64,000 nucleotides of DNA from Branchiostoma floridae (lineage: Eukaryota > Chordata > Leptocardii > Amphioxiformes > Branchiostomatidae). The DNA lies in the NCBI RefSeq assembly GCF_000003815.2, contig NC_049993.1, forward strand, positions 4,717,309 through 4,781,308, in the 5' to 3' direction. The notes beneath the pieces were generated by a model that was not told where the DNA came from, searched no databases, and was given only the letters and a program-made list of their open reading frames with translations. Both the position numbers and the translations under genes were made by a program. This document shows positions 29,901-38,108 of this stretch, in pieces. The first letter of the stretch is position 1; each line of letters starts with the position of its first letter.

Positions 29901-32900
29901 ACCCAATATCTTGTTTAATAGAGGCTAGGGACAGTCATGATATCACTTGATTAAATATTTTTTGTAACATGAAGTTTTCAGAAGGCTGATGTAGCTTTCA
30001 AGTTGCTAACTTTGAATAACCCAAAGAGTAAGTTAGGATATATCTAATGTAGATAATTGTAGCGAACATCCTAAGTGATACATGTGTAGCTGATGACTTT
30101 TGTCTCCCCCTCCCCAGTGACAGTAGCCTGCTGACCCCCACCACCCTGGAGACTCTCATCAACGGCCTCCCGTCCCTCAGACACCTGGCTCTCAGCCGCT
30201 GTTATCACATCAACACAGCCTACCTAGTGTAAGTGCAAAATAGCAGTGATTTCGCTAGCTATAGTGTAGTTGAAATAGTTGCAAAGAAAAGTGTGTTGTC
30301 TAGTGGTTGTCTAAACTGCCAGAGTTTCAGCCCAATAAAATGCTCTCAGTACCAGGTTTTGACTGCTGAAACCCCTAAACAGGGCCTGTGCCCCTAACTT
30401 CAGGGTTTCGCGTGCAACACGTATGCAATGCTGTTACTTCCAGGGGCACCGCTGTTTCAGATATGGGCTTCCGGGTTGTTTAGCCTGGGCCTCATTATAG
30501 CCTCATTATCATACTCTCGCGAGAGATGCCCCGGCGTGGCAGCGCGAGATCCTGTTACAGAACCACAGCAACCAGTTGTTTATGCCTTGTAACTAGGGTG
30601 TTTGGGGAGCCTAGGATCATTAATCACTCCTAAACAGCTGTCTTTCCAAGAATTTAAGCCCTTCCCCCTGACCTGACAGCGGCCTCATGAGTAACTTCCA
30701 GCAGATTAGTTTTCCAGGCAGGCATTTTCAGGGCATGACCTGGCTGGGTGTGTTCATGCTGACATCTGATTTTCCTCAACTTCAAGTGCTCTCTACACTT
30801 TTCCCTCTCAATTCACATGGTAATCTTTACATTCCTCTTCAACCTTGTACTTTTCTCTACTTATTGCTATATTTCTGGTCAACTTTGGAATTTTTCTATT
30901 CTTTCCATGTGTCTTTGAATCACTATGACCCAACACGTGGGTATACATGACTGTAGTGTCCGGTATCTGGGTTACACATCAAATTGATGTCAGAATCACT
31001 TAAAATTATACAGAACTTTATCAAACTGTACATTATTATTCAATCTGCAAATTAAGATAAGCAAGACATTCATATTTTTATATATATTCATCCTTTATTC
31101 TGGTAAAAGAAGAGGAAGTGCCCCCCTCCCCACCCCAAACCCCATCTCATACATGGTAGCTCCAAGTGCATACAAATCAGTTTTCTAGAATATTAAGTCA
31201 TTCTAATAACTAGTATATCATAGACACAGTGGTATCTAATAGTTCTTTTCCAACCTATGGCTATGTCTGCCAACCTTGGTCTTCAGGATCATATAGAGAA
31301 TTTATCAAAGCTATGTCGGTTTTGTGGAGAGTCAGTCTTGACTAAGGCCGACAAAGCAAGGTTTATCAAACCACTCGTTTGTATTGAGTATGCTAAGCAA
31401 ATTGAAGAGCTATGGCAGATCAATGTTCACAGGGACAAAAGTTACCAGCATCCTCCCTCCTTCTGTCACAGATGTAGATTGAAATTGTACCAGCCAAGGC
31501 CCAAGACCATCACACCTACACGCGTGTCTTGGTACAAACACCCATTTGGCAAGCCTTGTAACCACTGTGAAAAGGTCTTGTCTATTTCCAAAGGAGGTAA
31601 AAAACCCAAAAAGAAGTCTAAAGCTGGTAGACCAAGGCTGCAGACAAATGATAAGGGGGCAAAGGTTGAACAAGAACAAAGTACACCCGAGTACAGTGAT
31701 GGAAACTTGACTGAAGAGACGTTTGCACATTTGCTGGATTTGCTCGAGGACCTGCCATTCGATGAGACCAAGTTTGAGCCCATTTGTAACCTTGATGCAT
31801 ACAAATGTGGCATCTGCCAGTCATTCCTATACCTACCTGTGCTAACCCCCTGTGCTCACATTTTCTGTTTTGAGTGCATACAAAAATCATTCACTATTTC
31901 TGAAAGAAACATGATCGACTGTGCCATTTGTAAAACACAGATATTACAGAATGACCTCAAACCTGTACACAGAACTTGGGTATCTTGTTACACCCAGTTA
32001 ACATTCAACTGCAAAAACTGTTCGACTCAGTTGAGGTTGGAACAATTGAAGCACCACCTTGACTGTAGCTCAACGACAGAAGATGAAAGTACAGGTGCAG
32101 GTCCCCCTGCCCCTCCCCCTTCAGTTACACTTACATCACTGCAACCTGTCCAGGTTGTCTATGTCCCCATTGCAACTCCAGTGCTCTCTACACCACCTAA
32201 CAACACTGCTGCCCAAACTTCTACTTTCACTTTAACTAACACAGCAGGCTCATCTGCTGCTTCCACTAGCACTCCCTCCACTTCATCAACCACTTCATGT
32301 CATTGCGAGCCAGGCATGATTCCTTTTGATCCGAATGAAGATGGTCCCCTGAATTCGCAGCAGAAAAAAGTTGCTCTATCATACGTTCATCGCATGATGG
32401 CTGAAGCTCCTGACAAACGGAGTTTTCAAGTGCCAACAGGAGGACAGGTATGGAACATTTTTCTTTCTTGTTGGAATATAATTTATCACAATAAATATTT
32501 CAAAATTTTACATCAATATACTTTGATGCTTACAAATCTTTCTGTGTTAAAATGTATGCTGCATTCAAAAGCACATGGGTGTCTGTTATTTTAACATATG
32601 ACATCACTACATACTGTTGATACATCAATGAATCTTGATTTTTTTTTTTACTTTGCAGCCCCTACAGTTCGTACATGTCCCACGGCCTAGGAAGAAGACC
32701 AGTGAAACAACATCATCCACTACTAGGAAACGGGCCAAGATGATGCAGGATGTCCGTGACAAAGTGAGCGGTGGTGCTGCTGCTGCACAGATGAAGGCAG
32801 AACTCCAGCTTCACCCTCGTGACGAGCTGCAACAGATGTTGCAGGAGTTGAAGCTGGATCGGATCGTCATCCCCAATGGTCACCTGTTGGCAGCAAAAGT

Positions 32901-35900
32901 TGGGGTTGGAATGAGCTGGAGTCAAATAAGAAAGTTGAAAAGGTACAGTTGGCAAAATAAAACAACTTTGTCTGTGTACAAACCCTTATCTTGCATTTAG
33001 TTGAAAAAGGGTGTACATATATTTCAAAACCATTCTATTTTGTTACAGGTGGCTGGGCAAATATAACATCAAGCTCCCTAGTGAGAAGATTTCGAGGGAG
33101 ATAGCTGCAGAACAGATTTCTGGGTTTGACATCACTGCAGAAAAGTTACCTTTTTCTGTAAGGGAGAACCGCAAGGACCCATTCACAGTACAGCTCCGGC
33201 CTTGTGCTTACGTCACGTCATTGAAAGACACCATCTTCTCCTACCTGGACAAGAACAAGGAAGCAAAGTAAGGGTCTACCATTCCTTGTCAGACTTACAC
33301 TGATTACACAGGATGGAAATAATACAGTAAAATGCCAACAATGTTGACGGCAATTAACTCCACTACATTTGTCTCTTACAGCATGCTGACCTGGCACGGC
33401 AAAATCCCAGAAGACGAAGTTTGGGTGAAACTTGGTGGGGACCATGGTGGGGAATCATTCAAGATGATCTTCCAAGTCCTCAACAGGGATCACCCAAACT
33501 CCAAGGACAACACCAACGTCTTTTGCATTTTTAATGCAAAAGACAGCCGTGAAAACCTGACCCTGGCGCTTCAGCGATACACTGAAGAGATCAGAGACCT
33601 TCAGGTGTCTAAGTGGACGTAAGTAAACATATTTTCTTTTGGATTTGAACAATGGTGTGGACATAAAAATCAGTTTTACAAACATTTACAATATTAAATG
33701 TTAATCAAAACAACGTTCTTCAAATGCAGGTCCGACGGGAAAGAATACAAGCTGAAAATCCTTGCTACAGGAGACTACGCCTTCCTGTGCACGTGGTATG
33801 GGCTGTCTGGAGCTTGCGGTGAGGGAATTTAAATTTGAACACTAACATGAATATATCTAGTGATACTTTGTTCAGAGTTAGCTTGACACTGTGCTGTTGT
33901 ATTTTTACTACAGGATTCCACCCCTGTCTATGGTGCTATATCACCCTGCACCAGATTCCAGAGGACAGGGAGAACAGACCTCTCAGAATCCCTAAAAGGA
34001 CTCTGGACTCCTTGGCTGCAGACCACCAGAGGTTTGTCCAAGAGGGCATGGGCAAACTCAAAAAGGCCAAGGAGTACAACAATGCCATTGCACCAGTGAT
34101 GTTCAATGTGCCTATAGACCAGGTAATTTCAGACATCTCCAACTAAACTTTCACCTACTTAGTCATTATGTATATCAGACTCTTAATCTAAGCTGCTGCC
34201 TCTATTTATTTACAGGTTATGGTGCCTGGTCTGCACATCGGCCTCGGCCTGTATAAGAAGCTTTTTGAACATCTAGAGGCTGATTTGCAGGACATAGACC
34301 TGAAGCTACAGTCATACCTTGAGTCTGTCCTAGCTGAAGGCGAGGTGACGAAGGATGTTCTTCTCGCCGATGAACATCTGGGCAAGTTCAAGTCCTTCGT
34401 CGCTGCCATTGACGAGGCGCGAGCTTTGGATGATGCAGCAGATGTCCTTGAAGACCAAATAGAAGAACAGGAGAGCCAGCTGGCCTGGCTTGCCTACAGA
34501 GATGGCGTGGAGGACTCCATGGCTGAAGTCGTCTTCAACGAGGCCTGCAGCATGGTTCAGGACCTGTTCCAGCAGAAGGAAACTCTGGTAAGTACAACAT
34601 TCAAACTATTCAAATGTGACAGCTATATTCTAACTTCTAAATGATTATCACTGGTCTATGTCCATTCCATGTTTATCATTCTTATTCATTTAGAGGGCAA
34701 AGGCTGATGCTGTCAGGAATAAAGCATCAGTGAAGACCGGCAAGGGCCCCTTGACGTCACAGTTGGATCCTAAACTGAAAGAGTTTAAAGTCCGCAGGCA
34801 GGAGTACCATGGCAAATCCTTCATCGGCAACCATGTACATAAGATGCTCAAGGCAAGTACCGTACTTGTTTCTCATTTGAATTTCTTGACATTGCAGGTC
34901 TGGTACACTGTTGCAATCTAAAACCATCTACCACTTCAGAATTTCTCATCTGCTGTTGTGATATTTTCTTTATGTACACAGGAAAATGCAATAAACGAGC
35001 TAACATCTATCGTGGTCACAACCATAAATGAAATCCTGGAGAAGTTTCCTGACCTGCCCCTGTCACTGGTGCCAAAGGCACATGCAACGGCTGAGAAGCA
35101 CAAGCAGCTCTTCACGCTGTTTGCCCAGTGCCATAAGAAGTACTCCCACGCTGATCTGATGGATGCGGAAGCTATAAATGAGCTGGGTAAGAATTCCCAT
35201 AAAAATAACATTCTTTGTGTATTGTTCACTCATTTTTCCTCACCCCAGCATGCCTGGGATCTTTGATGTGTATTTAGCTATGGATGTAACTTAAAATGGC
35301 ATGTAAATTGATTTCTATGTAAACATTTACATTTACAGACAATGCAATCACAGCATTCATGGGATATTATCGGCAACATGTGCCACATGGGACAGTACCT
35401 ATAAAGATGCACATGTTGGAGGATCATGTGGTTGACTGTGTCAGGAGTTGGGGGTTTGGGCTTGGCTTCCTGGGCGAGCAGGGCATCGAACACCTCCATG
35501 CCATCTTCAACAACATCAATGCCACATTCCGCGGCATGATGAAGGATGAGGTGGTCCAGCTCAAGGCTGCCCTGAAAGACCATCACATCCAGAACAGCCC
35601 TGGCCACGAGGGCGGTGTTCCAGACCCTGTACCAAGAAAGAAAAATGACTAGCATTACTATTGTTGTTAATTCTATTGTTATTGGTATCAAATGTATGAG
35701 TAATGTTGCATGTAATTTCAGACTTGCATGCTAAGAGAAAGGTGTAAAAACATTTGACTCCTACAAAGACTGGAGTATAATGTAGTGTTCTATATTATAA
35801 TTCATAGACTTCATTAGTATATGCACTAATGCAACAATTATATCTGGGATACTTTAATAATTATCATAAACTGCCACCAAACAAGTGTATCAGTACTGTG

Positions 35901-38108
35901 TGATGCAAATTACAGTAACTTGTATGACAAATGAAAACGAGTGAGGCCATTGTACAAAAAAATATTGTTATTGTGTTTTCAATATTTGTGATCAATGTTC
36001 ATAAGTTCATCATAACATACTGGCCCATTTTGGCATTGTAACTCTAGCACACTGTAACCATGAAAATATTTATTCACTATGTTATTGAAATGGTCACAAA
36101 TAAATCCTTTTACTCCATCTTACAACATACAACACAACACTGATGATTTCCAAACGTGATCATAGAATACTGGGTTTGGTCTCAAGGGGGGAGGGGGGCG
36201 GTATTACTCTATGGGACGAAATGGAACTTCGGGAACCACAACGCTTTCAAAACAAATGTAAACAAATGTTTCCGAAGTCAATTCACCAAGTTAACGTGAC
36301 AGAAACTAATATTTTCCGATAATATTCGATAAAACGTGCCATTCAGAATATGCAAATGAGGTAGCATGGCGGAAAACAGAGAAAACATACCTTTGTTTCG
36401 CGAACTCCTGAACGGTACAAAAAATTCCAAAGTTGTCAGGCTGCCTTCTGGAGGGTTACCGACCGATCGATCCAACTATTTCCAGTGTTCTCGGCCGTTG
36501 GAATTGAGACACATTCGTAAAATCCCATGCTAAAGTCTGTGATTGCTTCTTGACCTCTCCACACCGACGCAGCAACTTAGAACCGACCGATGGCGGCGAA
36601 ATCCCGGCAGAAACGCGAGTAAGCAGCTTCAGCCTCTAGCCAACAAAGATGGCTACCGTCTCTATCAAGTTGGAGGCACCACGTGACCGAAACTATGAGC
36701 TATGATTGGTCTAAAGATGGATATCCAGTTCTGAGCCTGCAGTGCGCCCACGCGGCCGCATGGTGGCGCAGGCGTATGTGTACCTCATTATGCATGCATT
36801 ACATCACCAGATAGGCCACACCCATACAAACTAAAGTGCCAAAGCCAAACAGCGGTGGGGGATTCCCTATCCTGGTTATAGCTGGGTGCGGCTTACAGGG
36901 CATATACATATATCTGAATGCTGGATGTATCAGGGCTTGGCAATAGTTGGCATCTTATAGGTTAAAGGTCTGCTACGCAGTTTTTTGTGCTCAAATTTGA
37001 AATATTCTAGAACTAAGAAATCTCAGATTTACTACTACTTTTGACACTTTTTGACACTTTTGTGTCATTATTTCACATTTGCAACGTAGAGAATTAGCCT
37101 ACAAACATTTCGTCCTACGCGCGCTGCAGGGCTTTAGCCAGCTCGAAATCATTTTCCGTCAACCAATTACAATCGTCGCGAAAACCGCGAAAATTAATTA
37201 GGAGGACTGAACTGAGACCTTGAAAAATGGGTTTTAATGAGATTATCGTATGCGAAAGGGCGCCGACACACATTGTCAACAATCATAACAATAGCAAAAC
37301 AAACAGTGTGTGGCTTTTACGGCCGTGGACGGCGTCCCCAAGCCGCCTGTAGCTTCCACCAAGGATTTTTGTCCGTCAAGGTTGACGGATTGGTTTTAAA
37401 ATTTTTCCGTCAGACGCAGCAAATTTCCGTCGGACGGACGCTGGCTAGACCCCTGGCGCGCTGTAACTTTCTGACCTCCCTAGTTAGGCACCGGTGAGAA
37501 TTCGAACAAGAATCAATCATCAACGGTTCATTCGGAAGAAACAAAATGGCTGAAACCCAGCGCGGGTGTGCAGATTCAGAGGTTTTCAAACGCGCTCGCA
37601 CGGCGAAAATATCGACTCCCGACATACCTTGAATAGTGTTCCGTAACGTGGTAGGCTTGATTCAACTAACTGTACAAAGAAATGGCCGGAAAATGGATTT
37701 TTTGTTTTCAGTTTGAAGCGCAAAAAACTGCATAGCAGACCTTTAAGGTCTTCTTTGGTATGGAGTCATATTGTCAACATTTTCAAAAGGAAATATGTGT
37801 TTTTTTATGTACCTTGTACAGCTTTCTTCAACCAAGCAATACCACATTCAGACATATGTTTGTTGACATGTAGCAAACACTAACAGTGCCACTGATGTTT
37901 TCTCTCTCTACATAACAGGAATCTTGGTGCCATGCCCAAGTTGGCCACGTTAGAAGTCTTTGGTATCCTGTGTGAGATCGGCATCGCTAATCTAAAGGAA
38001 CTCCTGCCACGCGTGAAGGTGAACACACGGCTCTTCAGCACCGTGGCGCGCCCAACCACCGGCTACCGCTGGACGTCCATATGGGGACTCAAGTGTCCCA
38101 ATATGTAG
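23957..38108 (+). CDS. SKP2: SKP2-like F-box/leucine-rich repeat protein (12 exons, 472 aa)
   Basis: Substrate-recognition subunit of the SCF (SKP1-CUL1-F-box) ubiquitin ligase; the vertebrate orthologue targets the CDK inhibitor p27 and acts in the nucleus. Exons: 23957-24045, 24998-25193, 26088-26217, 26659-26767, 27289-27462, 27915-28049, 28831-28935, 29105-29159, 29341-29413, 29720-29771, 30118-30228, 37919-38108 (stop TAG 38106-38108). All phases agree. The F-box starts near residue 139 ([18 protein letters not shown], then CSRWHNV and DESLW). About seven leucine-rich repeats follow ([57 protein letters not shown]). The tail [10 protein letters not shown] matches the IWGIKC end of human SKP2. 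The N-terminus is basic and low-complexity as in vertebrates; 472 aa compares with about 424 in human. The start has a good context (gcgaagATGG). The 7.7-kb last intron carries a whole other gene (31257-35652). Confidence 0.93.
25333..25751. mobile_element. CAGGG-ended MITE in SKP2 intron 2, 5-bp target duplication
   Basis: CAGGGATCGAAATAC ... GTATTTCGAACCCTG between ACTCA copies (25328-25332, 25752-25756). Interior repeats of gcaaattgcaagt. A nested piece (about 25440-25540) resembles the 13203-13572 element. Confidence 0.75.
28189..28482. mobile_element. MITE with about 33-bp inverted termini in SKP2 intron 6
   Basis: GCCCCCAGCCTTTCTAGAGA ... TCTAGAAAGGCTGGGGGC; the arms continue into gtcacgtttct / agaaacgtga. 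No clear target duplication found. Confidence 0.7.
29432..29490. repeat. (CT)n microsatellite in SKP2 intron 9
   Basis: ctctct runs interrupted by tagat, 20 bp after the donor of exon 29341-29413. Confidence 0.9.
30229..31256. other. SKP2 intron sequence 5' of the nested gene
   Basis: A GC-rich patch (30350-30620, with the TCTCGCGAGA motif) is followed by AT-rich sequence. No ORF, no recognised repeat and no convincing TIR partner downstream. It probably contains the promoter and possibly non-coding exons of the nested gene. Confidence 0.4.
30515..30524. promoter_or_regulatory. TCTCGCGAGA palindrome, possible promoter motif
   Basis: The palindromic CGCG motif TCTCGCGAGA is a known core motif of TATA-less promoters. 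It occurs in a GC-rich patch about 730 bp before the start of the RAG1-N-like gene, and could mark that gene's own promoter inside the SKP2 intron. Confidence 0.35.
31257..35652 (+). CDS. RAG1 N-terminus-like transposon protein (RING finger + DDE-like transposase), 10 exons, 1092 aa
   Basis: Exons: 31257-32447, 32659-32942, 33049-33267, 33382-33618, 33730-33818, 33914-34122, 34216-34587, 34694-34852, 34982-35186, 35339-35652 (3279 nt, no internal stop). Seen: a RAG1-type zinc-binding region with C20/C23, H65, C70/C73 and C101/C104, including HPPSFCHRC and a following GRPRLQ motif. Next is a C3HC4 RING (C184/C187, C199/H201, C204/C207, C222/C225) and a C2H2-like finger (C252/C255, H266/H267, C270), the same order as the non-core part of vertebrate RAG1. 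A Ser/Thr/Pro-rich linker (about 275-370) leads to a transposase-like half: GGDHGG (D585), ATGDYAFL (D659) followed by a Cys/His cluster ([10 protein letters not shown]), and [11 protein letters not shown] (E1035) near the C-terminus. These are my candidate catalytic residues. Known: mobile elements coding RAG1-N-like proteins (N-RAG-TP) are described from Aplysia, with relatives in lancelet, sea urchin and cnidarians. Inference: such an element, nested on the same strand in the SKP2 last intron. I found no flanking TIRs and no RAG2/Kelch ORF nearby. An AATAAA lies at 36099-36104. Upstream 5'UTR exons are possible. Confidence 0.85.
36099..36104 (+). terminator. Poly(A) signal candidate for the RAG1-N-like gene
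   Basis: AATAAA about 450 nt after the stop codon of the nested gene, in AT-rich sequence and on the same strand. It would let the nested gene end its transcript before the last SKP2 exon. Confidence 0.35.
36240..36840. other. CpG-rich block in SKP2 last intron with short ORFs
   Basis: A GC- and CpG-rich stretch downstream of the RAG1-N-like gene, unlike the AT-rich DNA around it. It holds a 55-codon plus-strand ORF from ATG 36366 ([17 protein letters not shown]...) and an ATGGCGGCGAAATCC start near 36590 followed by a donor-like cga|GTAAGC. These look like promoter or first-exon sequence, or the 3' part of the nested transposon. I do not recognise a product. Confidence 0.3.
36966..37742. 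mobile_element. TTAA-flanked element holding a nested hAT MITE
   Basis: TTAA at both edges with inverted termini AGGTCTGCTACGCAGTTTTT and AAAAACTGCATAGCAGACCT. About 780 bp including the 329-bp nested insertion. In the last SKP2 intron, 3' of the RAG1-N-like gene. Confidence 0.7.
37127..37455. mobile_element. hAT-type MITE, 8-bp target duplication GCGCGCTG
   Basis: Sister of 14379-14720 in the same orientation, bounded by perfect GCGCGCTG (37119-37126 and 37456-37463). Nested inside the TTAA-flanked element 36966-37742. Confidence 0.82.

Follow-up and report, generated by a model that had tools for sequence, protein, structure and literature searches.

Organization of the locus

A 64,000-nt stretch of Branchiostoma floridae (the window, to which all coordinates without another label refer) contains a transposon situated in sense orientation within the last intron of SKP2, and this transposon carries a ten-exon gene for a transposase with similarity to RAG1, the enzyme of antibody gene rearrangement (Table 1). 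The nesting had been predicted from the letters of the window (the original prediction) and is consistent with a phmmer match of the exon 3′ of the intron, the only exon compared in identifying the host gene as SKP2.

The feature was originally predicted at 31257..35652, as an undisrupted 1092-codon frame of ten exons with complete splice sites. Re-splicing reproduces the frame exactly: removal of the nine introns yields 3,279 nt (1,092 codons plus the stop codon) with no internal stops, and the intron phases are consistent throughout (0,2,2,2,1,0,0,0,1). Eight introns are bounded by GT-AG and intron 8 by GC-AG; a GC donor at intron 8 is also present in the L009 and L010 copies described below, and because it is common to diverged copies this non-canonical donor may be ancestral. 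The predicted interval describes the coding part but not the boundaries of the feature, since the transposon spans 30447–36857.

Table 1. Features of the last SKP2 intron and of the transposon within it.
Feature	Coordinates	Strand	Remarks
Last SKP2 intron, containing the transposon	30229..37918	+	boundaries read by eye
Terminal SKP2 exon with stop	37919..38108	+	phmmer match to solved SKP2, E 5.2e-11
Complete Chapaev transposon, 6411 bp	30447..36857	+	inverted repeats, target site duplication and CAC ends; DUF1280 transposase inside
Left target site duplication GGGG	30443..30446	.	identical to 36858–36861
Right target site duplication GGGG	36858..36861	.	
Left terminal inverted repeat CACCGCTGTTT	30447..30457	+	11 bp, perfect
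Right terminal inverted repeat	36847..36857	-	11 bp, perfect
Exon 1	31257..32447	+	Chapa zinc region (residues about 1–125), RING, C2HC motif, linker
C3HC4 RING (residues 184–225)	31806..31931	+	zf-C3HC4 match; eight ligands pair with those of RAG1
C-x2-C-x11-H-x2-C zinc-finger-like motif (residues 252–270)	32010..32066	+	
Exon 2	32659..32942	+	3′ part aligned with the segment preceding the RAG1 catalytic core
Exon 3	33049..33267	+	
Exon 4	33382..33618	+	holds D585, invariant in 38/38 rows
Exon 5	33730..33818	+	holds D659, predicted second catalytic Asp
Exon 6	33914..34122	+	holds C678/C681
Exon 7	34216..34587	+	holds H750
Exon 8	34694..34852	+	holds G912; GC-AG intron next
Exon 9	34982..35186	+	
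Exon 10	35339..35652	+	holds H1013/H1018, E1035/E1039 and the stop codon

Transposon ends

The search for ends in the SKP2 intron followed the design seen at the boundaries of twin copies elsewhere in the assembly (CAC...GTG ends with perfect 4-bp duplications). It gives two candidates: a strong one (30447–36857) with an 11-bp terminal inverted repeat (TIR) and the target site duplication (TSD) GGGG on both sides, and another of 3 bp. A TIR of 11 bp was reached in none of 1000 Markov resamples of both flanks (maximum 9). The CAC termini are as in the other full-length copies, and the left end of the window transposon, CACCGCTGTTTCAGAT, resembles the right end, CACGGCTGTTTCGCAT, of the C9/C10 copies.

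There is also a perfect 16-bp inverted repeat inside the transposon (30880–30895/36420–36435), its arms lying 433 bp in from the left end and 422 bp in from the right. This length was reached in none of 500 flank resamples, and C19 does not retain the repeat. It was considered as a pair of TIRs and rejected, because the similarity to C19 continues beyond both sides and the flanks do not match; it is perhaps a subterminal binding site.

The same SKP2 intron contains a separate short element (36962–37746) about 100 bp past the 3′ end of the Chapaev transposon. It has 41-nt inverted arms that are 85% complementary, with TTAA at both extremities, and is a MITE-like (miniature inverted-repeat transposable element) insertion.

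The transposase and its assignment to the Chapaev superfamily

Pfam identifies DUF1280 (PF06918) at residues 475–638 (E 1e-12) and a zf-C3HC4 RING (E 1.9e-5), with RAG1_imp_bd (PF12560) at residues 49–136 slightly below the cut-off (22.2 versus 23.3 bits). A paired-cysteine region, the RING ligands and a zinc-finger-like motif follow one another in the window protein; the first two are as originally predicted, and the finger, which had been described as C2H2-like, is of the C2HC type, all four of its ligands being the same in each of the 7 RING-bearing relatives aligned. The family alignment has 38 rows and includes 37 relatives (of 40 found, P0007, P0012 and P0020 were omitted as incomplete or much longer), in which C678 and H750 are each present in 38/38 rows, C681 in 37/38, and H1013 and H1018 each in 36/36 rows having a letter there.

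Chapaev hallmarks are TSDs of 3–4 bp, 5′-CAC...GTG-3′ ends, and transposase motifs C(2)C, LH and H(4)H (PMC4079192). DUF1280 has been assigned to Chapaev transposases and grouped with RAG1 in clade II (PMC3985635), and a 2025 paper relies on the same motifs to group Chapaev with Transib, RAG1 and others (PMC12730594). The Chapa domain of Kapitonov and Koonin takes its name from the Chapaevs of lancelet and sea anemone, and two Chapaev subgroups, of unstated species, have Chapa followed by RING (PMC4411706).

The window transposon has 5′-CAC...GTG-3′ termini within perfect 11-bp inverted repeats, a 4-bp TSD, as do its sister copies, and a DUF1280-type transposase in which the motifs C(2)C, LH and H(4)H are all present. 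The transposase also has a Chapa zinc domain ahead of the RING, with Chapa judged from the RAG1-like N-terminal pattern rather than from a Chapa model. Because TIR, TSD, termini, DUF1280 and transposase motifs all match the published hallmarks, the unit is, on the evidence of its sequence, almost certainly a structurally complete and probably autonomous cut-and-paste transposon of the Chapaev superfamily.

Other copies in the assembly

DUF1280 is found at eight places in the B. floridae assembly, including the window locus. Five are other full-length copies belonging to three lineages: C19, the twins C9 and C10 (also L011 and L012), and the twins L009 and L010. A homology-based spliced aligner gives models without stops or frameshifts for all five. 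The models, which are local, span window-protein residues 2–1076 in L009 and L010 and 9–1091 in C19. The order of intron phases is as in the window copy with two exceptions, a phase 1 placement of intron 8 beside a small gap in C19 and one extra 48-base intron in C10. Of the eight places, L014 and L015 were rejected as intact copies because their gene models are incoherent.

The twins are nearly identical, with 98.0% identity over 5.9 kb between L009 and L010 and 98.8% over 8.25 kb between C9 and C10. CAC...GTG ends mark the points at which they cease to match, and each twin has its own perfect 4-bp duplication (TTTT and AGCT for L009/L010, TAAC and GTTA for C9/C10). Near-identity in combination with different target duplications indicates that these relatives of the window transposon moved recently.

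A DNA search, whose counts are lower bounds, did not return a second full-length copy of the window lineage; it finds diverged stretches of the named copies and, elsewhere, short pieces at 73–88% identity, of which at least L042 has a stop within an exon. The right 558 bp of the transposon match only C19 besides themselves, and C19 is 66–79% alike in DNA stretches. Against the main reading, the ends of C19 are less clear: its right end (TSD ACGA) is compatible with more than one left end, and the left end that fits the window alignment has a weak repeat with 4 bp perfect (10/16). As only one full-length copy of the window lineage is found, recent mobility is evidenced for its relatives only.

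The left 454 bp of the transposon have an 86% match on C4, where window positions 30479–30900 are found at C4:23412878-23415390. Five further matches of the inner part of the left end follow on C4 with a spacing of roughly 420 bp, and this pattern may represent an array or a non-autonomous derivative.

In a 22-row tree, lancelet lineages are interspersed among species and the window copy has no close partner, its highest identity being 64%. The C9 copy encodes exactly P0040 (LOC118422598 of B. floridae). At the position of the window copy's RING, the C9 and C10 proteins have a proline-rich array of 17-residue repeats. One of the proteins omitted from the family alignment, the predicted protein P0012 of Nucella lapillus (1594 aa), joins PF00566, presumably a TBC domain, to a DUF1280 body, and is either a chimera of host and transposon sequence or a fusion introduced by gene prediction.

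Selection and the question of domestication

Comparison with paralogues shows that the coding sequence is under constraint. The nonsynonymous divergence (dN) between the window copy and C19 is 0.285 and the synonymous divergence (dS) is 2.13, which is saturated, giving a ratio of 0.13. Values of dN are 0.135 for the RING plus finger and 0.285 for the body, so that constraint on the RING region is no weaker than on the catalytic part. For the C9/C10 twins dN/dS is 0.26. For L009/L010 it is 0.46 overall, raised by the linker (0.85), and 0.17 in the body; the high linker ratio probably reflects gap misregister in codon pairing, and the body value is preferred.

The original prediction held the copy to be mobile or domesticated. 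If selection for a host function kept the copy in the SKP2 intron, the strong constraint on the protein, the presence of one full-length and intact copy of the lineage, and the reduction of other pieces of that lineage to short fragments (about 73–88% identity, in lower-bound counts) would be accounted for. However, mobile transposase lineages can show equal constraint, which is expected of transposases selected while mobile and so gives no evidence for a host role. Nor does the intactness of the copy require a host function, since the five other full-length copies are also open. The TIR and TSD are still perfect, and no lancelet protein closer than 64% identity to the window protein was found among the 8000 candidates sharing most words. 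The lack of nonsense or splice mutations limits divergence under neutrality since insertion to at most about 1.7–1.9% (95%; a rough bound that ignores indels), which is compatible with a young insertion. Domestication is very unlikely on these grounds; mobility, with perfect TIR and TSD and recently moved sister copies, is the favoured half of the prediction.

Relationship to RAG1

Searched against full-length RAG1 chains, which we take to be from mouse, the family profile gives one alignment that begins at the N-terminus and reaches the beginning of the core (E 3.3e-9 and 3.6e-9), and it also matches an N-terminal RAG1 fragment (E 1.8e-8); a second stretch of the match, over the RAG1 core, is not significant. 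With relatives included, the originally predicted resemblance of the N-terminal domains to RAG1 is thus significant. When the window family (38 rows) is compared profile to profile with 26 of the 120 RAG1 proteins listed (vertebrate where named), the two are collinear over 803 columns, from window residue 7 to 1083 (E 1.5e-18, probability 99.1). This local alignment places the eight RING ligands and three CxxC pairs of the N-terminus in register with those of RAG1, and in it D659, C678, C681, H750, G912, H1013, H1018 and E1039 pair with RAG1 core residues, which in mouse numbering are D708, C727, C730, H795, the G of the GN motif, H937, H942 and E962. D585 lies in VKLGGDHGG, opposite VKESCDGMG of RAG1 by eye only, as the program leaves the first aspartate unaligned. 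A global alignment of the full length has E 1.3e-27 but misplaces the H795 counterpart. The predicted joining of RAG1-like non-core domains to a DDE-transposase-like body is in agreement with these results, the body being of the DUF1280 type with RAG1-like residues in register.

Several results weigh against homology along the whole length. The N-terminal match is obtained with the family profile, whereas window residues 1–124 as a single sequence reach only E 0.38 against RAG1. The post-RING finger is out of register, with the RAG1 finger cysteines falling on other residues. The RING does not single out RAG1: with a single sequence TRAF6 scores higher, and the RING profile ranks RNF4 and a RING2-BMI1 chimera (two stretches each) above RAG1, with TRAF6 just below the best RAG1 entry. 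The body alone compares more weakly with the RAG1 core, at 17% identity over 491 columns; its global profile alignment fails (E 0.42), and the local alignment succeeds with E 5e-4, probability 31.6% and a score of 41.0. This score compares with at most 25.7 in 60 column shuffles, at most 32.6 in 60 block shuffles, and 18.2 for the reversed profile.

Collinearity with RAG1 over most of the length could also be found in a ProtoRAG or RAG1-like gene of the Transib lineage. However, Pfam gives DUF1280 for the body, and no RAG1 family beyond the N-terminal PF12560 matches the window protein at E up to 1. The TSD is 4 bp rather than the 5 bp of Transib (PMC8355894). Six other open reading frames tested in the transposon have no convincing domain, five of them having no Pfam domain and the sixth one match at E 0.096, below the cut-off, and no RAG2-like neighbour is seen among the six. 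A ProtoRAG-type gene is exceedingly improbable here, and the Chapaev assignment is retained.

Origin of the RAG1 N-terminus

The origin of the non-core part of RAG1, and its role before V(D)J recombination, are debated between two models. One proposes recombination between Transib and N-RAG-TP (PMC8355894); the other proposes that Chapa and RING had joined the core before Chapaev, Transib and RAG1 diverged from their common ancestor (PMC4411706). The second model, with a single ancient RAG1-like transposase, is the one favoured by the collinear profile alignment. We hold in even balance the fuller reading, in which lancelets have a transposon family that is still mobile, with a transposase homologous to RAG1 throughout, from the Chapa zinc region and RING through the DNA-binding segment to the DDE core, and in which RAG1 inherited its N-terminus with the core rather than by fusion of two transposons.

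The N-termini of RAG1 and Chapaev may instead have been joined to their cores independently, by a fusion of Transib with an N-RAG-TP-like element, leaving the collinearity partly convergent. Modules of RING and zinc finger are common, as the ranking of TRAF6, RNF4 and the RING2 chimera over RAG1 illustrates, and canonical Transib has no N-terminal part (PMC8355894); the mispairing of the post-RING finger and the modest similarity between body and core point the same way. Against independent joining, the order of Chapa, RING and core is the same in both, the CxxC pairs and RING ligands are in register, and the body alone exceeds the best of all 120 shuffles. Independent joining is somewhat unlikely, and it concerns the evolutionary reading rather than the identity of the transposon. 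If inheritance with the core is correct, the original job of the RAG1 N-terminus is testable in a living transposon.

A model for transposition

Transposition of the window copy would require the host to transcribe and splice the ten exons. The transposase would then recognize the CAC...GTG ends and excise the transposon using a RAG1-like RNase H active site (D659 and E1039, with D585 as a putative catalytic residue) and the CxxC/HxxxxH zinc site, and insertion at a staggered cut would leave 4 bp of the target duplicated. Zinc and ubiquitin-conjugating enzymes are possible binding partners of the Chapa/RING part, which may regulate the transposase as the RAG1 N-terminus does and may be a ubiquitin ligase. 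The window copy has an open frame, defined ends, a target duplication and the conserved residues, and its sister copies have moved recently; the window copy itself may still be active.

Comparison with known systems

Membership in Chapaev, the domain architecture and the link to RAG1 are already published in kind. Among the papers returned on N-RAG-TP, Chapaev and RAG1 (a scope that excludes subscription papers and Repbase), no title or abstract opening describes this SKP2-intron copy. Added here are a complete copy with its ends, relatives in this assembly that are open and recently moved, and profile evidence, at the level of residues, that the protein is collinear with RAG1.

Repbase includes Chapaev1_BF and Chapaev2_BF of B. 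floridae (figure legend, PMC4079192). The window transposon is likened to them by the published superfamily hallmarks (CAC...GTG ends, 3–4 bp TSD and a transposase with C(2)C/LH/H(4)H), and may or may not belong to a deposited family. LOC118422598 is of the same family with the same introns, and its element on C9 is complete and has a twin, 98.8% identical, on C10, but it differs in that RING is absent from its precomputed Pfam domains and a proline-rich tandem repeat occupies that part. N-RAG-TP of Aplysia californica (Panchin and Moroz 2008, as described in citing papers) is similar in being a mollusc transposon with a RAG1 N-terminal-like protein, but is described in a citing paper as made up entirely of such sequence; conjecturally, N-RAG-TP is itself a Chapaev.

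RAG1 and the RAG1L/ProtoRAG systems of the Transib lineage share with the window transposase the 803-column collinearity seen with vertebrate RAG1, with the N-terminal and RING zinc ligands and the D/C/H/E core residues in register. They differ in a TSD of 5 bp as opposed to 4 bp, in a RAG2-like partner, which is not seen among the open reading frames tested here, and in sequence, with low identity. The window transposon is complete, its ends are defined, its RING-bearing transposase is intact and its sisters have moved recently; it provides a native system for dissecting the N-terminal domains and is a useful living relative of RAG1 rather than a new kind of system.

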